30,103 nucleotides of DNA. It comes from a virus. A program made the translations under genes and the position numbers. This document shows, in pieces, positions 1 through 30,103 of the stretch (the first letter of the stretch is position 1; each line of letters starts with the position of its first letter). The stretch is taken from IMG/VR virus record IMGVR_UViG_3300024259_000111, positions 1 through 30,103 of that record; one strand, 5' to 3'. A model generated the notes under the pieces. The model worked only from the letters and a program-made list of their open reading frames with translations, searched no databases and was not told the origin of the DNA.

Positions 1-168
1 ATTACTAAATTAAAGGTTGTAATTTTTCAACCCCCCTACCTATTGTATTAATTTTCAAATAATTATATTCATTTTTTAAAAATAGCACCCCCCTTAAAAT
101 GTTTTTTATTTTCAAAAACCAGCGCCAGGAGGTAATTGTAATATAATGCACTGATATATTACAACTAG
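1..168. other. Noncoding junction upstream of terS, candidate packaging (cos/pac) region
   Basis: No ORF with coding character lies here. The stretch holds two C-rich tracts on an AT-rich background, a run of six C at about 31-36 and another at about 88-93 (G-runs on the strand that carries the genes). It also contains the inverted repeat listed separately. If the window is circular, this stretch plus the last 31 bases forms an intergenic region of about 200 bases directly upstream of terS, which is where packaging sites of HK97-type phages lie. That role is inferred from position only. The window ends may be the physical cos ends or an arbitrary assembly cut. Confidence 0.35.
136..164. repeat. 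Inverted repeat resembling a core site for a tyrosine recombinase
   Basis: TTGTAATATA (136-145) is repeated as its exact reverse complement TATATTACAA (155-164) around a 9-base centre. Read as 11-bp arms around a 7-bp spacer (147-153), one arm position mismatches. Arms of about 11 bp around a 6-8 bp centre are the usual form of Xer/dif-type core sites. The repeat ends five bases beyond the stop codon of the XerC-like gene. It could instead be a weak terminator, but the stem is AT-rich, the loop is long and no U-run follows on the gene strand. Function is inferred. Confidence 0.45.
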
Positions 169-1092
169 CTAATAATCTAAGCTTTTGATTATGTTTTTAT
201 TAAAAATCATTTCCTTTTCTTTTTGTCGTGTATATATTTGTGTGGTTGCAAAATTTGAGTGCCCCATGAATACCATTACATCGTACTCGTTTAAGCCGGA
301 TGCTAATAATATTGTGGCGGCTGTATGGCGTAAGCTGTGAGCCGTAACCATGGGGTGGTTAATACCGGAGGCAATTAAATGCCGCTTAATCATAACGCTT
401 ATATGGTGGGGTATTAACCTTTTATTTTTATTTCGGCGAGCGTACGATATAAATAACGGGTCGGTATCTTGCCAGTTACCAGGGCGGGCGAGTAAGTAAT
501 CTACTATGGCCTCCTCGGCTTTTGTTGATAATGGTATGGTGGCATCCTTCTCGGTTTTACCTTTGCGCTGTATTACTATTGCTTTTTGCTTGGGGTTGTA
601 ATCGATTATATCGCCCACATTCATGCGGGTAACTTCAATCTCACGCAAGCCGTTACGTAACATTAAATTAGTTATTGCATAATCGCGTTTACCGCCTGGG
701 GTTTTAAGATCGAATGTTTTTAATAGTGCGTTCGCCTGGTCCATACTTAGCGAGCGTTTACGAAACGTGCGGTATGTTCTGTTTATTCTTATGCTGGTGG
801 TTAGATCCTGGGTAATATCGTTAATGGCTAACCAACCGTAAAATAGTTTTAAGGTGGTCATATATGAGGCTACTGTTAAGTCGGTTTTGTTTTCATCTAA
901 TAAGCTTTGTTTATATTTAAGTACGTCGGATATACCGAGCTCGCCAAAGCTTTTACCCTGGAGCATTGCCCAGGTAACAAAGCGGTTAATATTAAACTCG
1001 TATTGCCGTTTACTTAGCTTTACGACGTCGCGCTCGGCTAAAAATTTCTTTATTAGTTTATATGGATCGGGGGGCGTGTTTATTTTTTCCAT
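169..1092 (-). CDS. XerC/XerD-like tyrosine recombinase
   Basis: A 307-aa site-specific recombinase that would cut and rejoin DNA through a covalent 3'-phosphotyrosine. Residues about 15-95 form the N-terminal SAM-like core-binding domain and about 115-300 the catalytic domain. The catalytic set is complete: R150 in GLREIEV, a Lys near 177-179, H252 and R255 in HSLRH, H278 in MGHSN and Y287 in IYTR. It lacks the N-terminal arm-binding domain of classical phage integrases, so it belongs with the simple Xer-like enzymes. Its ATG overlaps the end of the HNH gene by 13 bases, making it the last gene of the early operon. It is a second recombinase beside the integrase at 6212-7369. Dimer resolution, recircularisation or DNA inversion are possible roles, and the inverted repeat at 136-164 is a candidate target. 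Confidence 0.9.
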   Translation of the reverse strand: MEKINTPPDPYKLIKKFLAERDVVKLSKRQYEFNINRFVTWAMLQGKSFGELGISDVLKYKQSLLDENKTDLTVASYMTTLKLFYGWLAINDITQDLTTSIRINRTYRTFRKRSLSMDQANALLKTFDLKTPGGKRDYAITNLMLRNGLREIEVTRMNVGDIIDYNPKQKAIVIQRKGKTEKDATIPLSTKAEEAIVDYLLARPGNWQDTDPLFISYARRNKNKRLIPHHISVMIKRHLIASGINHPMVTAHSLRHTAATILLASGLNEYDVMVFMGHSNFATTQIYTRQKEKEMIFNKNIIKSLDY

Positions 1093-9542: not shown

Positions 9543-9731
9543 TTATCCTTTTAACAAATCTTTCAACGATTGCCATTCAGCTAGTTCCGTTTGGTAACCG
9601 TCTATTTGACCTTATGCGTGGTTAATATCCCCTTCCAATAAAGCAATTTTACTATTGACTTGCTCGGCTGTATATTCAACCTCATTGGTTTCAATTACTT
9701 TACCGTCTTTTACTTTTAGTTTCTTTGGCAT
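9543..9731 (-). pseudogene. Small tail-fibre-associated gene broken by an in-frame stop
   Basis: From the ATG at 9731-9729 the frame runs 39 codons (MPKKLKVKDG...EGDINHA) to a TAA at 9614-9612. It then continues in the same frame for 22 more codons (GQIDGYQTELAEWQSLKDLL...) to a second TAA at 9545-9543, just 4 bases before the next gene starts. The part after the stop keeps the same amphipathic helical pattern, so the original protein was probably 62 aa. CAA or AAA to TAA would be a one-base change. The segment shares the unlike base composition of the tail fibre. A sequencing error or readthrough are alternatives. Confidence 0.6.
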
Positions 9732-12073
9732 TATTTTATCCTTATTAAGTTAAAATTACCGTGATTAATTGTCAAGTTTCCCGTGTTGTCCGCTTTGGCT
9801 CTTATGCAAACTTTGTTATTCGCTGCCAATACAACCATTCCCGTTCCGCCTACATTTCCTAAGTCACCTCCCGTTCCAATTTTACGTTCAGTTTCGATGT
9901 TTATAAATTCTGTATTTGTAGTTGAATTAAAAGCCGATATATGAACGACCGTGTTGTTGGTCGCGTGCGTGAAACTCATTGAGAAATTAATTAGATACGT
10001 TCCAGCTTGTTCGACTAAAATAGTGCTATCTGTGTCTAATGTTCCCGAAGTTACTTGTCCAGCAGTCCAACCTGACAAAGTATAATAGTTTGCTGTCGCT
10101 GTTGAAATTACTGTGCTTGGGTCGTATAGTTCGCCAAAGGAATTATCGCTTGTTAAACCACCAGTTACAACTGTTTCACCGCTTCCATTCGGGTCAATCT
10201 CTAAATCTTCGTTTGTTGCTCCCGTTGTTATGTGTGTGCCGCTGCCATCGTTTTGGAGTGATAGGGTTGCTTGAGTGTCGGTTGCGTTGTCGTTTATGAA
10301 ACTTAGTAAAGGGCGACTTCCTACTTCGGCAATGTCCCTATCAACTCTAAGACCGTAACCACTACTTAAATCTTGAGTAAGTCTTGCCGCATATTTACCA
10401 AAAGAATAAATTGATGGTTCACTTGTGGATTCACTATCAATATTTATTCCTCTTTGATTTCCATTCTGGTCAATACTAACCCCATACCCTGCCCCATCCT
10501 GCTGAACAAAAATACTTGGTTGAGTGTTGGAGGTGTGGTCGTTTATAAAGTTGGCTAAAGGCAAACTGCCCGCCTCATTTAGATTCCTTGCCACATATAA
10601 TCCTCTCCCATCTGCAATATCCTGAGTTATATTTGCAGCATACTTTCCAAAAACAGTCATCGCTGCTGTGCTTGTGCTTTCGCTATCTACATTTAAAGCA
10701 GTCGCATCATTATTCTGGTCAACCGTCAAAGCCGTATTCGCCCCGTCGGGTGTAATTGTTGTATTACCGTTTAAGGCGATTGAGTTAGTTGCTGCTTCGG
10801 TAAATGTTGCCATTTCTGTACCGCCTACCGTAACGCTCAACACATCGGCAGCGGATTCATTTATAAATGTATGTGAACCACCGTCGAAATAAAATCCTTT
10901 TATCGGGCTTACGTACACATTACCATCGGTAAAACTATAATCACCAGAAAACCCACTAAAGATAAGTTGGTCACTCGTATTAATAGCAATATTACCCGCA
11001 TCCCCGTCACTTGCTACAAAACTAAGTTGTCCGCTTGTGCCTCCGCTTAGACCGAGGGTGAGGGGTTGTGTTACCGCTCCAGTTCCCGTTATGGTTGTGT
11101 TGCCGTTTATTGTTAACGTCTGACTTGACGGTGTAGCATTAAATGTACCGTACATTAAAGCGCCTGCTTTATCTCCAGCCGTGTTTGTTCTGTCTAAAGC
11201 ATCAACATAAAATACACTATTTTCTACATTGTATTTCCCAGCAAATGCACCAACTGAAGTTGTGTTACTTGTATTAGCCGTTGAATTACTATAATATCCA
11301 AAATTTGAATTATAAGTACCACTCGTGATGTCATCTCCTGAATGAGTGGCATATAAAGCATTATAATTACCTGTATTAATAGTCGCCCCCGAAGAACTGC
11401 CATAAAGTGAATTATAAGCACCTGCACTAATACCAATCCCGCTATAATAGCCAACGGCTGTATTATATTGCCCACCAGCCAAAGAATTTAAAGCATACTC
11501 TCCAATTCCCACATCGCCAGCACCTGTTATACTCGCATTGCCAGCATTTGCCCCCAAAATTACTCCAGTAGTTGGGTGTAAAATATTCATACTCTCTATT
11601 GTTGTAACTGTCAAATCACCCGGAATATCAACCGCTCCGCCCGTTGTAATCGAAACGGGATTAGCAGTTTCGCCTAATGGATAAAGCCAAATTCCTTGGT
11701 CGGCATCGCTAAAGATCCAACGTGCTAAAGTGCCGCCGATTTGTTGATTTATCTGTACATCAATATCCTCGGTACCATCGCCGGTATCGGTGGCGCTGGC
11801 TTGTATACTTGCGTTAATATCGCCGGCGCTGGCGTCGGTATCTTTAAACTGGAGTACCGGCGCCGCGGTTTTTATTAGCATATCGCCGGCGGCTGTTATT
11901 ATACTAAAAAATGTTTTGGCGCCGTAAATGCTATCCGCACCCGTGGTTTGCACAAAGGCGGTATCTTGCTTGCCGTTAAATAAAAACGCGTTTACCGGCT
12001 CGCGCTTTACGGTTTGCCCAAACGTATAAACCGTGGTAAATAACAGTAATATTATTATTGTTAATGTTTTCAT
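9731..12073 (-). CDS. Tail fibre / adhesin-like protein with signal peptide
   Basis: A 780-aa protein likely to recognise the host surface. Residues 1-19 are a Sec-type signal peptide ending FGQ. Residues about 20-115 are Ala/Asp-rich. About 180-290 hold YadA-head-like repeats (GxNAGNASI, then QYNTAVGYYSG, AYNSLYGSSSG and similar), as in trimeric adhesins. Further on a unit of about 80 residues occurs twice (each with DSESTS, FGKYAA, TQD and FIND elements). The C-terminal about 130 residues are a compact beta domain rich in Thr, Val and Ile. From about residue 103 (nucleotide 11,770) downwards codon use shifts from GCC/GGC/TCG-type to A/T-rich choices, marking a transferred segment. A signal peptide on a virion protein is odd. 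Confidence 0.75.
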   Translation of the reverse strand: MKTLTIIILLLFTTVYTFGQTVKREPVNAFLFNGKQDTAFVQTTGADSIYGAKTFFSIITAAGDMLIKTAAPVLQFKDTDASAGDINASIQASATDTGDGTEDIDVQINQQIGGTLARWIFSDADQGIWLYPLGETANPVSITTGGAVDIPGDLTVTTIESMNILHPTTGVILGANAGNASITGAGDVGIGEYALNSLAGGQYNTAVGYYSGIGISAGAYNSLYGSSSGATINTGNYNALYATHSGDDITSGTYNSNFGYYSNSTANTSNTTSVGAFAGKYNVENSVFYVDALDRTNTAGDKAGALMYGTFNATPSSQTLTINGNTTITGTGAVTQPLTLGLSGGTSGQLSFVASDGDAGNIAINTSDQLIFSGFSGDYSFTDGNVYVSPIKGFYFDGGSHTFINESAADVLSVTVGGTEMATFTEAATNSIALNGNTTITPDGANTALTVDQNNDATALNVDSESTSTAAMTVFGKYAANITQDIADGRGLYVARNLNEAGSLPLANFINDHTSNTQPSIFVQQDGAGYGVSIDQNGNQRGINIDSESTSEPSIYSFGKYAARLTQDLSSGYGLRVDRDIAEVGSRPLLSFINDNATDTQATLSLQNDGSGTHITTGATNEDLEIDPNGSGETVVTGGLTSDNSFGELYDPSTVISTATANYYTLSGWTAGQVTSGTLDTDSTILVEQAGTYLINFSMSFTHATNNTVVHISAFNSTTNTEFINIETERKIGTGGDLGNVGGTGMVVLAANNKVCIRAKADNTGNLTINHGNFNLIRIK

Positions 12074-20668: not shown

Positions 20669-22093
20669 TTAAGTAGTTAAGGCGTCGGCCATTGCGGCAA
20701 AGCTTTGGGCGTGGCGTACGCCAACATCCCACCAGCTATTTGCAACAACGCGCAACATATTAGTAGTTGCAAGGCTGTAAGGATCTACAACAATATCCAG
20801 GCCGCCCCATTGTGCTACAATTAAGTCGTTCCAATTACCGAAAATTATTGCGCTACAAACGCCGGTACTTGTACCTTTATCCAGTGTGCTAGGCACCTGG
20901 GTTGTAACTCCAGCTTTGTAGCCGAGTAATTCATCGCTTGCCGATGGCCATACAAATAAACCGGAGCCGCTGTCGAGTTCGGTTTGTTTTAGTTTCGCAC
21001 GTACCTTTGGGTTTGTCATAAATGCAAGGTTACCAATATCGGCATTATCTACGGATACCTCACGCTCGAGGTTAACCAGGTTGCCGAAAGTTGGGGCAAG
21101 TCCGTTTGTACCACCCGCAACGCTACCAATGCCGGATGTGTTTAATATACCGGTTGGTTGATCGCTGGAACCCGAGCCGTTAATCGCGGCCAAATCAATA
21201 GCCAATTGTATGGCCATAATTAAATCGTTACGCACAAAGTTTTCAACATCGATTGAGCTTTGTATAATTAGTTGTTTGCTTATTTCAGTATAACAACCAA
21301 GGCGGTTCGGTGTTAGTGAAAGCTCGCCAAATGTTTGTGATTGTTCGCTACCGGCGTCGACTTCGCCCTCCCATGCCGCGCTGGCGGCGGTGGCTTGTGT
21401 TGGCATGGATATATTACCCATTAAGCCGGTCATTACCTGGGCGCCATATTGAGTAACCAACATTTTAGCGCGTAGTGCCTCAATAAAACCAACCGTATCG
21501 GTGGGGCTTAAATAACCACCCTGGTTATCGGTACCCTCGGTTAAATCTCTTTTTTCGCTTAATACAATCGATGGTATACCAATACCAGTTATGGCAACGC
21601 CGTTTGTTGTGGCTTCGCGTTTAGCTTCCTGGTCCATTTCGGCCTCGAGCCCTTCGAGTGCTTTACCTTCGGCTTTTGAGCGGATGGCTTTAACAAACGA
21701 GTAACTACGTACTTCTTTTTGTTCTTGCTTTTTGGTTACACTGTTAATGTGAGTGTTCGCCATTTCGAGCGTGCGAGCTTCATGCTCCTCGGCTCGTTTA
21801 ATTTCTTTATCGAGCTCGCGCATTTCAGCAATTAAACCATCGTACTCGGTGTTTTGATCTTCGGTTAAATCGCGTTTTTCCTCTTTAGCGAGGGCGTGGA
21901 TAGCCTGGGCGCGTTCCCAAATGCCGGCCTTACTTTCCTTTAATTCTTTTGATGATTTAATACCACCAACCACCAAGGCAAATGCAGTTGTTACCGCGAG
22001 TGTTCCCTCGGCTGGGTTCGCGTCGAGCGTACCCGCAAACATTGTTAAAAATAACAATGTAACTAGTCCTAAAATAATTTTACGTGTTTTCAT
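20669..22093 (-). CDS. Major capsid protein (HK97 fold) with N-terminal signal-like sequence
   Basis: A 474-aa protein. After the first 45 residues it has the HK97 plan: a charged coiled-coil delta (scaffold) domain at about 46-125, a loop to about 185, and the HK97-fold body from GGYLSPTDT (193) to the end, with the E-loop in the LVTQYGAQVMTG part. The delta domain would be removed by the prohead protease gene just upstream. Unusually, residues 1-25 look like a Sec signal peptide (KTRK, hydrophobic 6-17, cleavage-like TLDA) and a second hydrophobic stretch lies at 32-45. Starting at M18 would remove the first of these, but the ATG at 22093 suits the spacing better. Confidence 0.9.
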   Translation of the reverse strand: MKTRKIILGLVTLLFLTMFAGTLDANPAEGTLAVTTAFALVVGGIKSSKELKESKAGIWERAQAIHALAKEEKRDLTEDQNTEYDGLIAEMRELDKEIKRAEEHEARTLEMANTHINSVTKKQEQKEVRSYSFVKAIRSKAEGKALEGLEAEMDQEAKREATTNGVAITGIGIPSIVLSEKRDLTEGTDNQGGYLSPTDTVGFIEALRAKMLVTQYGAQVMTGLMGNISMPTQATAASAAWEGEVDAGSEQSQTFGELSLTPNRLGCYTEISKQLIIQSSIDVENFVRNDLIMAIQLAIDLAAINGSGSSDQPTGILNTSGIGSVAGGTNGLAPTFGNLVNLEREVSVDNADIGNLAFMTNPKVRAKLKQTELDSGSGLFVWPSASDELLGYKAGVTTQVPSTLDKGTSTGVCSAIIFGNWNDLIVAQWGGLDIVVDPYSLATTNMLRVVANSWWDVGVRHAQSFAAMADALTT

Positions 22094-24782: not shown

Positions 24783-25001
24783 TTATTTTCTTTTAAGTCG
24801 ATAGTTACGGGCGTGGCGGTAACTGGCAAAATTTGAGTAACGGCGGCGGCCAAAGTGTTTTATATATTCATCCTCGAGTTGATCGTAAGCGGCTTTTTGT
24901 GTTGGTATGCGTGGATCGCTTAACAGTGTTGTAAATGCTTTATCGTAACCCTTTACGGTTATGAGTGTTTTGGCGCGGGGTGTGAGGGGGTTGGCTTTCA
25001 T
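24783..25001 (-). CDS. Small basic late protein
   Basis: A 72-aa, very basic protein (about 17 Lys/Arg plus His), predicted helical, with a C-terminal RRRYSNFASYRHARNYRLKR segment. No family recognised. Between terL and portal genes. A DNA- or RNA-binding role would fit the charge. Confidence 0.6.
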   Translation of the reverse strand: MKANPLTPRAKTLITVKGYDKAFTTLLSDPRIPTQKAAYDQLEDEYIKHFGRRRYSNFASYRHARNYRLKRK

Positions 25002-25032: not shown

Positions 25033-26610
25033 CTAACTTGTTGCAAAGCCTTCGGTGGCAAATCGTTTATTAATATCCTCCTCCAGTGGGCGGCTCCAAA
25101 GGGCGGTAAGTGCTACAATTACGGCCATTATGCCATCAATTTTATCGGTGCTCGATTTTTTACTGGGGCGTATGTTTTCGTTTGTATCCTGGTATATCAT
25201 TACGTTGCTCAACATCCAGCGTAATACGGGGTGCCCGCCGTGGTTTATTGCTTTGTTTTTTATGAGTTTGTAAAAGCGCTTGGTGGGTTCGCTTAGGGTT
25301 CCTATATTCATTTCGACTTTATCGAATATTTCGCCATCGATATTATCGGCCAGGTTTATTATTAATTGGCTGGAGTTCCATTTATCAAACCCAATGCGTA
25401 CAATATTAAATTGCTCGTTTATATCGAGTATGGTTTTTTCAATTACGCGGTAATCGGTTACGTTGCCAGGGGTAACATGTAGTACGCCCTGGCTTTGCCA
25501 ATTAAAGTATAGCATATCGCCGCGAGCTTTACGCCGCTCGATCATTTCCTCGGGTACCCAAATGTATGGCATAATACCTATTGGTGTAAGGCCATCTAAA
25601 AATATTATGGCGAGGCTGGTTGTATCGTCGGTGCTGGCAAGGTCGAGGCCGAGCACAACATCGCACCCCTTAAAATCGTCGGGGTTTATTTCGCCCAGGT
25701 TGCACGCCATCCAGGTATGATCGGGCACCCATGAGTATATGGAGCTGGTCCACTGGTTTAAATGTAATTGCCTAAATGCGTTTTCGTTGTTTGGGTTGTT
25801 TTTTACTTTGTTGGCGGCGGCCCGTATGTAATCGGTTTTAACTATTGAGCCATACCCTGGGTTGGCGAGTTTCCAGGTGGTGGCGGCAAAAATATCGAGT
25901 TCTTTATCGGCCGAGTATATTACGGGTAAAAATGTATCGTCGATTATTATACCCTCCAGGACCTTGCGGGCGTATTCATGGAGTTCGTAACATATTGAGG
26001 TACGATCGTTACCGGCGGTGGTTAATAAAAGTATTACGGGTTGGCGGCGCGAGCCTACGGATGTGGTTAATACATCGTAAAGCGCGCGGGTTTTTTGTGT
26101 GTGAAATTCATCGAATACAATACCGTGGGCATTAAACCCGTGTTTGGTATGGGCGTCGGCACTTATGGCTTTATAAAATGAGCCGGTTTTTTCGTAGGTT
26201 ATTGAATTACGGTACGGGGTTGCACGCGAGGCCAGGGCTTTACGCTGGGTTACCATACGCTTTGCAATATCGAATATTATACCAGCCTGGCCACGCTCGG
26301 CGGCGGCGCTGTATATTTCGGCACCGGGTTCGCCATCGTTCATTAACAAGTATAAACCAATGCCACCGGCTAACGTACTTTTTGCATTTTTACGTGGTAT
26401 TTCTACGTATACGGTGCGGTACTTTCGGAGCTTTGTAATGTTATCCTTCCAACCAAATAAGGGGCGTACAATATCATTTTTTTGCCAGGGCTCGAGTATA
26501 AGGGGTTTACCCTGGTGCTCGCCTTTAACGTGGGTAATATATTTCTCAATCCAGGTTACGGCGCGATCGGCGGCGAATTTATCAAAGTGGTATTTGTGTT
26601 GGTTTGGCAA
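25033..26610 (-). CDS. terL: Terminase large subunit
   Basis: A 525-aa packaging motor of the HK97/P27-partner type. ATPase part: adenine-binding PWQK (41-44), Walker A-like PRKNAKST (72-79), Walker B IVFDE (164-168) and a coupling TTAG motif (near 200). Nuclease part: first acidic residue in GLDLAST (about 320), a last one in DKIDGIMAV near the C-terminus. The start is TTG at 26610-26608; no ATG or GTG lies in frame between the upstream stop (26671) and it, and no strong ribosome binding site is visible. A 48-aa gene ends 5 bases before, so translational coupling may supply initiation. Confidence 0.93.
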   Translation of the reverse strand: MPNQHKYHFDKFAADRAVTWIEKYITHVKGEHQGKPLILEPWQKNDIVRPLFGWKDNITKLRKYRTVYVEIPRKNAKSTLAGGIGLYLLMNDGEPGAEIYSAAAERGQAGIIFDIAKRMVTQRKALASRATPYRNSITYEKTGSFYKAISADAHTKHGFNAHGIVFDEFHTQKTRALYDVLTTSVGSRRQPVILLLTTAGNDRTSICYELHEYARKVLEGIIIDDTFLPVIYSADKELDIFAATTWKLANPGYGSIVKTDYIRAAANKVKNNPNNENAFRQLHLNQWTSSIYSWVPDHTWMACNLGEINPDDFKGCDVVLGLDLASTDDTTSLAIIFLDGLTPIGIMPYIWVPEEMIERRKARGDMLYFNWQSQGVLHVTPGNVTDYRVIEKTILDINEQFNIVRIGFDKWNSSQLIINLADNIDGEIFDKVEMNIGTLSEPTKRFYKLIKNKAINHGGHPVLRWMLSNVMIYQDTNENIRPSKKSSTDKIDGIMAVIVALTALWSRPLEEDINKRFATEGFATS

Positions 26611-26615
26611 GGGGG

Positions 26616-26762
26616 TTACGGTTTTTGGTTGTGGGGTTGGTTGTAAAAATGGTTCTGAGTGGTAAACTCTTTATCTGAGTTGTTGGGTTGGGGGGCGGCG
26701 CCACCAATTTCGATACCAGTTAAACCGGTAAGGTATTTGTTTGCTAGTTTAGAGTGGTTCAT
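26616..26762 (-). CDS. Small gene directly upstream of terL
   Basis: A 48-aa ORF (start NHSKLANKYLTGLTG, end YNQPHNQKP), rich in Asn and Gln. It starts 3 bases after the stop of the gene before and ends 5 bases before the terL TTG, so it fits the operon packing exactly. It has native codon usage. Function unknown. It may serve to deliver ribosomes to the weak terL start, or be joined to terL by a frameshift. Confidence 0.5.
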   Translation of the reverse strand: MNHSKLANKYLTGLTGIEIGGAAPQPNNSDKEFTTQNHFYNQPHNQKP

Positions 26763-26765
26763 TGG

Positions 26766-26999
26766 TTATTGTTTAGGGTTTAGGGTTTCGAGTTTGGCGG
26801 CCATCCTTTTTAACTTAATATTGAGCCGGTCGATAATATTACCATACGCGGTAATTAACCCAACGCGTTTATTGTGTATGGCTATGTGTGGGCTTTTGGG
26901 GTGGGCGTTTATTTCGGTTATTTTCTTTTCGCAATATGCGATCATTTCCTCGGCCATTACCCGGCGGCCGGTGCCATAAGATGTATCAATATTTTCCAT
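26766..26999 (-). CDS. Hypothetical late protein
   Basis: A 77-aa helical protein, slightly basic (INAHPKSPHIAIHNKRVGLI, then a Lys-rich C-terminal helix). No family recognised. It lies 10 bases after the sugar-transferase cassette and 3 bases before the small gene in front of terL. Confidence 0.58.
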   Translation of the reverse strand: MENIDTSYGTGRRVMAEEMIAYCEKKITEINAHPKSPHIAIHNKRVGLITAYGNIIDRLNIKLKRMAAKLETLNPKQ

Positions 27000-27009
27000 A
27001 TCTATAATG

Positions 27010-27687
27010 TTAAAGTCGGTTATAATTTCCCATTATACAATTAGGATATAATGGCGATTGTTCAACGTAACACTTTTTACCAAGGCCCAAAGCAATGGCC
27101 AGGGGTAAGCTTTGGTTACCAATAAAATGCGTGCACGCGTTAATTATCTCGGCAAGGTGCAAGGCGTCGCCGGGCACCTGGTATAAAAAATCTGTTATAC
27201 CGGTGCGGCTTTTAAAGGCTGTAATTTCGGCGAAGGTGCCCACAAATAAAAAATTTATATCCTTTAAAATAGTGGTGTAATCCACTTTATCGTCGTGGTG
27301 GTTATCGCTGTTTGCTACAATTGTATACACTTCAAACCCTTCTCGATTGCACGTTAACCACGGCGCGTATGGCGGTGGCTTTATACCCTGGGCAATAAAA
27401 TGGTTATCAACTATATTAACGGTATCGTATGCGGTTAGGTGGGTGGTATCCATATATTTATCGAGGTCCATATCGATGGGCTCGCCGTTGTGAATTTTTA
27501 CATCCTCGATATATGGCTGGGCTTTTATTAATGGCATAAGCCAATTAAATTGTTTTATCCAGTGCTCGGCCTGGCCTTCAAAATGTGTACTAACCGGATC
27601 TAAATAAAGCACGCCACCACCCAAATGTTTAATGAGTGGTAACGAGTAAATTGTATCGCCTAACTTTGGTTTATGTAAAAAGTTCAT
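27010..27687 (-). CDS. Heptosyltransferase-like (GT-B) protein
   Basis: A 225-aa protein with features of the GT9 heptosyltransferases. GDTIYSLPLIKHLGG (10-24) is the N-terminal 'GD.i.slPli..l' loop, TFAEITAFKSR (151-161) is part of the second half, and CTHFIGNQSLPLAIALGLG (185-203) is the typical nucleotide-sugar site (cf. 'a.l.ignDSgp.HlA.alG.P'). The key Asp and His of that site are replaced (NQS-L instead of NDSG-x-x-H), and it is shorter than the usual about 350 aa. It is the last of three coupled genes (4-base overlap with the methyltransferase). A sugar-transfer or sugar-binding role is likely; substrate unknown. Confidence 0.65.
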   Translation of the reverse strand: MNFLHKPKLGDTIYSLPLIKHLGGGVLYLDPVSTHFEGQAEHWIKQFNWLMPLIKAQPYIEDVKIHNGEPIDMDLDKYMDTTHLTAYDTVNIVDNHFIAQGIKPPPYAPWLTCNREGFEVYTIVANSDNHHDDKVDYTTILKDINFLFVGTFAEITAFKSRTGITDFLYQVPGDALHLAEIINACTHFIGNQSLPLAIALGLGKKCYVEQSPLYPNCIMGNYNRL

Positions 27688-28319
27688 GTTTTAAATATTA
27701 TTAAATTGTGAGGGCCTCGATCGCATAACTCGCGTTGGTGGCATAGCGCCGGGGTTGTGTAATTTTTTATATATACATCGGGGGTAATTTGGTTGGCGGC
27801 GAGCCAAGTGGCTTGCCATCCTGGTGCCTCGCTTTCGTGCTCCAGCATAAGCCACACGGCATTTTTTTTGCAGTGGCTTTTTATTGCGGTGGTAATGTCG
27901 TTAATGTTCATTACCTCGGGTGGTAACCGGTTTACAATATGTTGAAATACAAACGTAATTAATACCACATCGATGGTGTTAAAAAGAAAATCAAAATTGT
28001 TAGCGATGGTAACCCGGCGCTTAAATTTGAGTAAGTGTTTATTAACCACCCAAAAGTATTTAAGCATATCGGGGTTGGTATCAATACCGTAATAATGGGC
28101 GCGGGTGTTGTGCATTACCCAATGCAAATTACGGCCCACGCCGCACCCAAAATCAAGTACATTTTTTGCGGCCAGTATTTTTTTATTATACGGGTTGGCC
28201 TTAAATGTTAATTTGGTTGTTGGAAAATCGCCGGCCAAATTATCGTATGTAAAACTTTTGGCGTGCTCGGCATCGCGGTAACTTTGGTTTGCGACGCCGG
28301 CACCGGTTAATTTTTTCAT
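27684..28319 (-). CDS. Class I SAM-dependent methyltransferase
   Basis: A 211-aa protein with the Rossmann-type methyltransferase core: motif I VLDFGCGVGRN (54-64), an acidic residue at the end of strand 2 (YGIDTNPDM, D80), and the strand-4 region VVLITFVFQHI. There is no target-recognition part and no DPPY-type motif, so it is not a standard DNA adenine or cytosine methyltransferase. The overall plan resembles small-molecule or sugar O-methyltransferases. Both ends overlap neighbours by 4 bases (ATGA), placing it between two glycosyltransferase-like genes. It may methylate the transferred sugar. Confidence 0.8.
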   Translation of the reverse strand: MKKLTGAGVANQSYRDAEHAKSFTYDNLAGDFPTTKLTFKANPYNKKILAAKNVLDFGCGVGRNLHWVMHNTRAHYYGIDTNPDMLKYFWVVNKHLLKFKRRVTIANNFDFLFNTIDVVLITFVFQHIVNRLPPEVMNINDITTAIKSHCKKNAVWLMLEHESEAPGWQATWLAANQITPDVYIKNYTTPALCHQRELCDRGPHNLIIFKT

Positions 28320-29311
28320 ACTAACGAGTTTAATATTTCAATACGTTTTTTGTTTATTTTATTGAGTGGGTAAACGTCGTTAATGTACTCCCAGGCGGTA
28401 TCGTTATTTTCTTTTATCTTAACCCGGCCGTGGTAAATATCTTGTATGTGCTGGCTAAATTCGGCGGGGTTATCGTACTTTAAAGTACCAGGTATTTGCC
28501 ACTCCTCCCAGTTGGGTACAATGCAAACGGCCCCGGCAAATATACCCTCGAGCGCCGCAATGTTACTTTTGCAATGGTTAAATAAATGGTTGGCTAGTGG
28601 TACTATCATGGCCTTGGGTGCCACGTTGTGTATATTTTTATGATAGGGTACAACGTCGGCAACGGGCGAGTGGTATAAATTTTTAACATTTGGCGAGGCT
28701 AACATCCAAGGGTACCACCCACAAAAATGCCATTTCCAATTACTTAACTCGGCGATGCGCTCAACTAGTTGCACGGTGTGTGTCATTAAATCGAGTTGGT
28801 GGGTTTCGGAGCCGCGCCATAATACGGTATCATTTCGCTTTTTAATATCGCGGTAATTAAATAGATCCTGGTTAAAAGCATTTGGCACCACTTCAATGCG
28901 GGGGTTGTATTTATCGAAAGCCTTTTTTAACCCGTGAGTTGATACGGTTACAACGTCGGCCATGGCTAAAAAGCCGGTTACGTTTGCGATTATTGCCGGG
29001 TCTGAATATAGTACATATTGTTTATTGTCGGGTGGTACGGCTAGGAGGTTGTCGTCGTAGTCAATCCAAAGCGGTATGTTTAAATCTTTAATGTAAACGG
29101 CGAGGCGTTTAAAACTATCGTCGTAGGGGCGTTGCATTACCACCACATCGTATAACATAAGATCGGCCCACGATAGGCTCATATTTTTGTGATCCATTGA
29201 GGTAATGGAAATATTACCCTTGAGTTGTTTACTTAAATTACCAAATACGCCATTGGCGCGGTAAAAGCTGGTGGTGTCAAATTTGTTTTGTGCTAATAAT
29301 AAAATGTTCAT
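28316..29311 (-). CDS. Glycosyltransferase (GT-B fold, GT4-like)
   Basis: A 331-aa protein. The N-terminal half (1-150) has a Rossmann-like pattern with WIDYDDN (82-88), VVTVSTHGL (120-128) and VVPNAFN (141-147), which are typical steps of GT4-type enzymes. The C-terminal half holds VLWRGSETHQLDL (163-175), then KSNIAALEGIFAGAVCIVPN (248-267) with Lys248 and Glu255 in the nucleotide-sugar site. First gene of a translationally coupled trio with a methyltransferase and a heptosyltransferase-like gene. Donor and acceptor cannot be read from the sequence. Capsid or tail glycosylation, modification of the host surface, or DNA modification are possible. Confidence 0.82.
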   Translation of the reverse strand: MNILLLAQNKFDTTSFYRANGVFGNLSKQLKGNISITSMDHKNMSLSWADLMLYDVVVMQRPYDDSFKRLAVYIKDLNIPLWIDYDDNLLAVPPDNKQYVLYSDPAIIANVTGFLAMADVVTVSTHGLKKAFDKYNPRIEVVPNAFNQDLFNYRDIKKRNDTVLWRGSETHQLDLMTHTVQLVERIAELSNWKWHFCGWYPWMLASPNVKNLYHSPVADVVPYHKNIHNVAPKAMIVPLANHLFNHCKSNIAALEGIFAGAVCIVPNWEEWQIPGTLKYDNPAEFSQHIQDIYHGRVKIKENNDTAWEYINDVYPLNKINKKRIEILNSLV

Positions 29312-29334: not shown

Positions 29335-29535
29335 TTAATCTAGTAATAATGAGGGGTTCGCTTTTATTCTAGCTTTGGCGTTTTCCCAAAACAACCCCAT
29401 TAAATGCGCGGTATATTCGCCAAGCGCGGCCATGGTTTCGGCCTTTGTGCTTATGCCGGTTTCAAAATCATTTATAGTGCCCTCGCAAAACCTATTGGCG
29501 TGGGTTAATGTTTTTATATTTTGTACTTTCATCAT
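29335..29535 (-). CDS. Hypothetical protein next to terS
   Basis: A 66-aa helical protein (KVQNIKTLTHANRFCEGTIN, then AETMAALGEYTAHLMGLFWE). No family recognised. 9 bases after terS and 23 bases before the glycosyltransferase gene. Perhaps a terminase accessory; no direct sign of this. Confidence 0.6.
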   Translation of the reverse strand: MMKVQNIKTLTHANRFCEGTINDFETGISTKAETMAALGEYTAHLMGLFWENAKARIKANPSLLLD

Positions 29536-29544
29536 AATTTTTTA

Positions 29545-30072
29545 TTAATCAAAATCGTTATCGCCATCGTTATCGCCGGCGGGCATTGCTATTTTTGTAC
29601 GGGCACTGGGTGTAAAACCAAACTCGGAGGCTAATATTTTGGACCGCTCCCAACTTTCTTTATTAATTTTTTGTATTCTTTTTAAAATAAGATCCTCGCC
29701 AAACATTAATGCCTCCATTACATCGTCTTTTTTCTCGAGGGGTATACGCTCAAAATCTATTTTGGCGAGAAAATCGAGCGTATTATTAACGCCATAATTA
29801 TCGAGCTCGGCCGATGTATCTAAATAATTACCATACTCACGGCAAAAAGAAATGAATAACTCTAAATCGAGGATGGTTAAAAGGCTTAAATTTTGTAATT
29901 GTTTACCCTTGGCCCGGTAAATTTTACGGGCGTTTTTTTTAAACCACCTTGGCGCCGACGGTAATTTTATAAGTGGCGAGCCAACCAGTTCGTTTTTATT
30001 TTCTCGGCATGGTTGAGTGGTGCCCCTTAATTTTTTTAAAGCCGTTGGTGTTGGTTTCCTTCCTTTTGGCAT
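29545..30072 (-). CDS. terS: Terminase small subunit (P27 family)
   Basis: A 175-aa protein that recognises the packaging site. The N-terminal RKPTPTALKKLRGTTQP (5-21) is diagnostic for the P27/Terminase_4 family (form: grkPtp..lk.LrGnp). The middle (40-140) is helical and includes the APRWFKKNARKIYR start of the core and LDLELFISFCREYGNY. The C-terminal FGFTPSARTKI (152-162) is the common family ending, followed by an acidic tail. The ATG at 30072 is preceded by AGGA. First gene of the late operon; the XerC-like and HNH genes precede it if the ends join. Confidence 0.92.
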   Translation of the reverse strand: MPKGRKPTPTALKKLRGTTQPCRENKNELVGSPLIKLPSAPRWFKKNARKIYRAKGKQLQNLSLLTILDLELFISFCREYGNYLDTSAELDNYGVNNTLDFLAKIDFERIPLEKKDDVMEALMFGEDLILKRIQKINKESWERSKILASEFGFTPSARTKIAMPAGDNDGDNDFD

Positions 30073-30103
30073 TTTCCTAATTTTGCATATATAAAAAAAA
30101 GAC

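Follow-up and report, generated by a model that had tools for sequence, protein, structure and literature searches.

A glycosyltransferase and methyltransferase cassette within the packaging module of a probable Bacteroidota phage, and its possible role in virion decoration

Genes between terS and terL

We analysed a stretch of viral DNA of 30,103 nucleotides (positions 1 to 30,103 of IMG/VR record IMGVR_UViG_3300024259_000111, hereafter the window), in which a cassette of three genes lies between the genes for the small (terS) and large (terL) terminase subunits. The features of this region were as follows:

29545 to 30072, minus strand: terminase small subunit, terS (PF05119, E 3e-10; phrog_83, E 8e-26)
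29335 to 29535, minus strand: 66-aa ORF between terS and the GT4-like gene, no family match in Pfam or PHROGs
28316 to 29311, minus strand: GT4-fold (GT-B) glycosyltransferase, 331 aa, predicted, cassette gene 1 (phrog_7162, BshA fold match)
27684 to 28319, minus strand: class I SAM methyltransferase, 211 aa, cassette gene 2 (PF08242, PF13649, PF08241)
27010 to 27687, minus strand: GT9-like glycosyltransferase, 225 aa, predicted, cassette gene 3, with a GNQS donor site (fold match to WaaC and 3tov)
26766 to 26999, minus strand: 77-aa ORF downstream of the GT9-like gene, no family match in Pfam or PHROGs
26616 to 26762, minus strand: 48-aa relic of an IEIGG-type methyltransferase (aligned with the intact enzymes of L003, L038 and L008)
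25033 to 26610, minus strand: terminase large subunit, terL (PF20441, E 4e-37; phrog_9, E 8e-159; PF03354 also matched)

The three cassette ORFs are intact, start with ATG and are chained by 4-base ATGA overlaps at 28316-28319 and 27684-27687, with the 66-aa and 77-aa ORFs on their flanks. Both terminases were confirmed by Pfam and PHROGs, and the chain of three overlapping genes between terS and terL was found as originally described. The family or fold matches of the cassette proteins are well beyond chance level. No homolog of the 66-aa ORF was found among the fetched loci. The GC content of the trio was 41-43% vs 42% for the genome, so base composition gives no sign of a recent foreign origin. 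A promoter scan was uninformative on expression, with sites no more numerous than in shuffled sequence; the position of the trio and its overlaps suggest that it is co-expressed with the late genes.

A second contig (L002) was 100% identical to the window and circularly permuted across its junction, running from the integrase at the left end of the window (1-1092) directly into terS (29545-30103) and the cassette. As the same arrangement is present in this permuted contig, misassembly is an unlikely cause, and because the two ends of the window are joined there at 100% identity, the record probably represents a complete genome with circular permutation. A host from the Bacteroidota is supported by a tail protein of the window with matches to Cellulophaga phages and by one of the integrases, whose domain architecture is common in this phylum; the phage is temperate and tailed and probably infects Bacteroidota.

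Predicted functions of the cassette proteins

The first protein matched the phrog_7162 glycosyltransferase profile of PHROGs (E 3e-28, residues 54-330), and its AlphaFold model (pLDDT 93) matched BshA (6n1x; Z 26.4, rmsd 3.0, 306 residues aligned). These matches bear out the initial guess of a GT4-like enzyme, and on its modelled structure the product is a two-domain GT-B enzyme of GT4 type. It should be noted that only the second Glu of the EX7E motif of GT4 is kept (E255, invariant in alignment A4). Residue 247, eight before it, is Cys in the window and is not Glu in the relatives of alignment A1, and K248-S249 are conserved instead. Sequence searches of the PDB with the GT4-like and GT9-like profiles gave nothing meaningful.

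The second protein matched Methyltransf_12 (PF08242, E 6e-10) and was above the curated cut-off for PF08242, PF13649, PF08241, PF13489 and PF13847. Motif IV of DNA methyltransferases, (D/N/S)PP(Y/F/W) or PC, and a target-recognition domain were absent from the 211-aa sequence, and no DNA methyltransferase family was matched in the family scans, in agreement with the original description of a SAM methyltransferase without DNA target-recognition signs. No relatives of this protein were found in viral contigs other than the identical copy in L002.

A further methyltransferase was once part of the cassette. The ORF at 26616-26762, between the 77-aa ORF and terL, codes for MNHSKLANKYLTGLTGIEIGGAAPQPNN... 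and its product aligns with the beginning of the intact methyltransferases of L003, L038 and L008 with scores of 71, 71 and 68 (the best of 2000 shuffles against L003 scored 44). Going by this alignment, the ORF is a relic of a fourth cassette gene, an IEIGG-type methyltransferase of which the first part only has been kept. Intact methyltransferases of this type are found close to a GT9-like or GT4-like gene in L003, L038, L039 and L029, and in L003 the gene is directly 3' of the GT9-like gene.

The third protein had no HMM family match, including none to PF01075. Its model (pLDDT 87) matched WaaC (Z 15.1, rmsd 3.2, 202 residues) and the GT9 enzyme of Veillonella (3tov; Z 14.7), and a plant NDH-complex subunit also matched the fold. 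When its profile was compared with that of the E. coli GT9 enzymes (four sequences), the C-terminal domain matched (E 6e-7). The columns which are invariant in E. coli WaaC, WaaF, WaaQ and WaaU include G12, D13, K192, D261 and H266, and these motifs were placed on the GT9-like proteins by aligning the sequences with the fold match as a guide. The D13 position (D11 in the window) was Asp in all 56 distinct aligned relatives. The D261 position was Gln in 40 and Tyr in 14 of the 56, the H266 position was Thr in 40 and Ala in 14, and neither was ever Asp or His.

The original prediction of a GT9-like protein with an altered nucleotide-sugar site was therefore well founded, with the donor-site Asp/His in 0 of 56 relatives. 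It had also stated that the usual Asp and His were lacking, which is correct for the donor-site pair; the N-terminal catalytic-base Asp, however, is present. The GT9 heptosyltransferases WaaC, WaaF and TibC have in common with the window protein the GT-B fold and the Asp at the D13 position, but they are ~320 aa in length rather than 225 aa, and where they carry D261/H266 the GT9-like family has mostly Q/Y and T/A and no match to PF01075. Alignment and model together point to a family with the GT9 fold in which a putative catalytic-base Asp is kept and the donor-site Asp and His are replaced family-wide. Because the altered site is shared across the family, including members in Bacteroidota chromosomal glycan clusters, the window protein is a member of an uncatalogued subfamily and not a decayed gene.

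Relatives beside head genes and in bacterial chromosomes

Relatives of the GT4-like protein were gathered by iterated profiles over the fetched loci. We found that 35 of the 41 distinct copies lay at most four genes away from a TerS, TerL or portal gene that could be recognised, a count of related sequences and not of independent trials; the remaining six were on short or edge-cut contigs (L011, L019, L048) or lacked a recognisable packaging gene (L013, L040, L044). Packaging systems around these copies vary, with unrelated types of TerL (phrog_9, phrog_38 and phrog_2) and with portals of the HK97 and SPP1 types, and the following junctions were seen: TerS-TerL-glycosyltransferase (L024), TerL-glycosyltransferase (L041, L042), TerL-portal-glycosyltransferase-x-methyltransferase-protease (L038, L039), TerL-portal-glycosyltransferase (L006 and others) and glycosyltransferase-GT9-TerS-TerL (L015 and others). 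Among the GT9-like loci, 29 of 58 had a recognised packaging gene, which was at most five genes away in 27 of these 29; in the other half, approximately, no packaging gene was recognised, few TerL types being recognisable and many contigs being short. It should also be noted that a 72-aa gene downstream of terL in the window (24783-25001, minus strand) has homologs in L024, L041 and L042, where the GT4-like gene adjoins TerL.

The location inside the packaging module was originally held to be unusual, and this is supported by a further 35 contigs fetched by similarity to the window TerL (34-54% identical): none had a recognised cassette copy between TerS, TerL and portal, many of these contigs beginning near terL so that the terS side is visible in some only. 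Where the portal was visible it followed TerL directly or nearly so. The trio in its exact form is not conserved among the relatives, which have either a glycosyltransferase with the GT9-like protein or the GT9-like protein with another methyltransferase. Other genes accompany some relatives, including GT2 enzymes, a DegT aminotransferase (L006) and a GDP-mannose dehydratase (L013).

In L054 the gene order is GT11, DUF5672, methyltransferase, GT9-like, portal, protease and capsid. The GT9-like proteins of L054 and the window are 60% identical, whereas the portals, proteases and capsids are 24%, 33% and 26% identical respectively. Likewise, the GT9-like protein of L003 is 58% identical to that of the window, while its TerL has no significant match to the window TerL. 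The GT9-like gene therefore has a history separate from that of the head genes, and these comparisons indicate that it moves separately from them, yet in each case (L054, L003) it sits among them. Homing-endonuclease-like genes were seen inside two cassettes, at 5786-6697 of L006 (phrog_314) and at 5850-6242 of L039 (HNH-like by eye), and these may help the cassettes to move. We tentatively propose, as a possibility rather than a probability, that cassettes of phrog_7162 glycosyltransferases and uncatalogued GNQS-type GT9-like proteins form a mobile unit which has repeatedly entered the head-module junctions of unrelated phages, giving exchangeable virion sugar coats, with a donor not used by ordinary GT9 enzymes.

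Outside of the head-gene setting, the phrog_7162 glycosyltransferase of Phapecoctavirus (phAPEC8) belongs to the same protein family as the GT4-like protein, to which it is ~25% identical. Unlike the window gene it is not beside head genes, but in a four-gene glycosyltransferase cluster adjoining primase/helicase in a 148-kb E. coli phage. No function could be drawn from the literature on the glycosyltransferases of phAPEC8 and of Flavobacterium phages.

Both families were also sought by profile search in 395 whole genomes representing the phylum of a Bacteroidota metagenome bin. The GT4-like family was present in 3 of the 395, one of which was the starting genome, and the GT9-like family in 10, as proteins of ~300 aa; an earlier scan of the genome contigs with the GT9-like alignment had found none, probably due to a narrow peptide pattern. 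Four larger chromosomal regions were read, containing GNQS-type GT9-like proteins of ~300 aa in glycan clusters (L171 7978-8931, L172 7506-8408, L173 7348-8238 and L174 7420-9403). In all four, glycosyltransferase genes lie close to the GT9-like gene; two of the regions have a canonical GT9 in its vicinity, and one has an ABC exporter (Pfam-confirmed) nearby. These stretches are glycosyltransferase-rich, with canonical GT9, GT4 and ABC exporter genes confirmed in part by Pfam. Two of the chromosomal GT9-like relatives had no Pfam match, and the chromosomal GNQS-type proteins are a candidate new glycosyltransferase family; with its conserved altered donor site, the GT9-like family would add an uncatalogued enzyme family to Bacteroidota glycan clusters.

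Candidate targets of the cassette

On balance, we consider that the trio is probably a soluble, cytoplasmic glycan-building cassette within the head/packaging operon, whose products attach a methylated glycan to proteins of the virion. Drawing on the nucleotide-sugar pool of the host, the GT4-like and GT9-like enzymes would assemble a short glycan on a capsid or tail protein that has just been synthesised, and the methyltransferase would cap or tailor this glycan, so that a methylated sugar coat is added during assembly. We infer the virion-protein target, the order of the sugars and the methyl group on the glycan. The protein families and folds, the operon-like chaining, the position, the recurrence beside head genes of unrelated phages and the separate history of the GT9-like gene all favour this reading, as do the sugar-nucleotide-type genes which accompany some relatives (L013, L006). 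None of the three cassette proteins has membrane segments. The original prediction was that the trio, expressed with the head genes, decorates the virion or the host surface; this is still the best-supported role, with the virion as the favoured target.

A similar arrangement is found in the mycobacteriophage Corndog, where the portal and protease genes are separated by genes for an O-methyltransferase and three glycosyltransferases (PMC4351075), and gp38 is reported to be indispensable for glycosylating the capsid (PMC12363180, which cites Freeman 2023). Corndog (cluster O) gp35-gp38 are likened to the window trio by gene content and position, glycosyltransferases and a methyltransferase being inside the head operon in both as in a Corndog-type virion-glycosylation cassette. 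However, the window genes are between terS and terL rather than between portal and protease, and Corndog is an actinobacterial phage without an integrase whereas the window is a probable Bacteroidota temperate phage. This kind of cassette thus has a precedent, and the finding is somewhat more general than the original prediction recognised. Among the cases found in the literature, the phages reported to glycosylate their own particles are mycobacteriophages. If decoration of the virion is correct, sugar-coating of virions would be widespread among environmental phages, the genes responsible would be recognisable from their location next to packaging genes and would be exchanged separately from the head genes, and the role of the coats in adsorption, stability or shielding would be testable in laboratory phages.

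Several observations count against a virion target: soluble cytoplasmic glycosyltransferases could equally act on lipopolysaccharide, the chromosomal GT9-like relatives are in glycan clusters, the phAPEC8 members of phrog_7162 are beside primase/helicase, and about half of the GT9-like loci have no recognised packaging gene. The main rival is that the cassette changes the host surface, its cytoplasmic enzymes adding to or methylating the lipopolysaccharide core or O-antigen and so preventing superinfection or keeping progeny from adhering to debris. We regard this as possible but rather unlikely. The GT9-like family is found in 10 of the 395 Bacteroidota-phylum genomes, with its gene near glycosyltransferases in the four regions read, the type of setting in which surface glycans are made, and WaaC, its best fold match, acts on lipopolysaccharide at the cytoplasmic face. 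However, the trio is inside the head operon, while seroconversion genes are usually a separate unit beside the attachment site. The gtrABC seroconversion clusters also comprise phage-borne glycosyltransferases, but these are membrane-based and commonly located close to the attachment site, whereas the trio is soluble, without a membrane segment, and placed within the packaging module. The scan of window proteins, which covered the small ORFs in part, gave no flippase and no membrane glycosyltransferase.

A variant compatible with either a virion or a host-surface target is that the GT9-like protein binds sugars or the virion without being catalytic, with only the GT4-like enzyme and the methyltransferase being active. 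As noted, other residues take the place of the Asp and His at the donor site, and the plant NDH-complex subunit which shares the fold suggests that this fold may serve structurally. The original suggestion that the protein may bind sugars nevertheless seems improbable, and enzymatic activity the likelier, as the altered site is family-wide, the catalytic-base Asp is invariant (56 of 56) and the GNQS site is conserved, including in the ~300-aa chromosomal relatives in glycan clusters.

Modification of the phage DNA before packaging, by glycosylation or methylation, is very unlikely. In its favour, the trio is between terS and terL, the phAPEC8 phrog_7162 glycosyltransferases adjoin primase/helicase and virus-encoded glycosyltransferases can hypermodify DNA (Pyle 2024, cited in PMC12619734). 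Against it, no thymidylate-synthase-type enzyme (PF00303) was found in the window or in 19 related records, several of which may be fragments (phAPEC8 also has none, so this is not conclusive), the methyltransferase is without DPPY/PC-type motifs, and the folds matched those of glycosyltransferases that act on small molecules, lipids and proteins.

Elsewhere in the window, two different tyrosine recombinases were found in this one 30-kb phage (169-1092 and 6212-7369, both minus strand), the second having the Arm-DNA-bind_5/Phage_int_SAM_5 architecture. The predicted major capsid ORF (20669-22093, minus strand) has a hydrophobic, signal-peptide-like start, MKTRKIILGLVTLLFLTMFAG, before the capsid domain, and its true start may be further in. 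A putative tail protein of 780 aa (9731-12073, minus strand) has a secretion-signal-like start, MKTLTIIILLLFTTVYTFGQ, which is odd for a phage structural protein.
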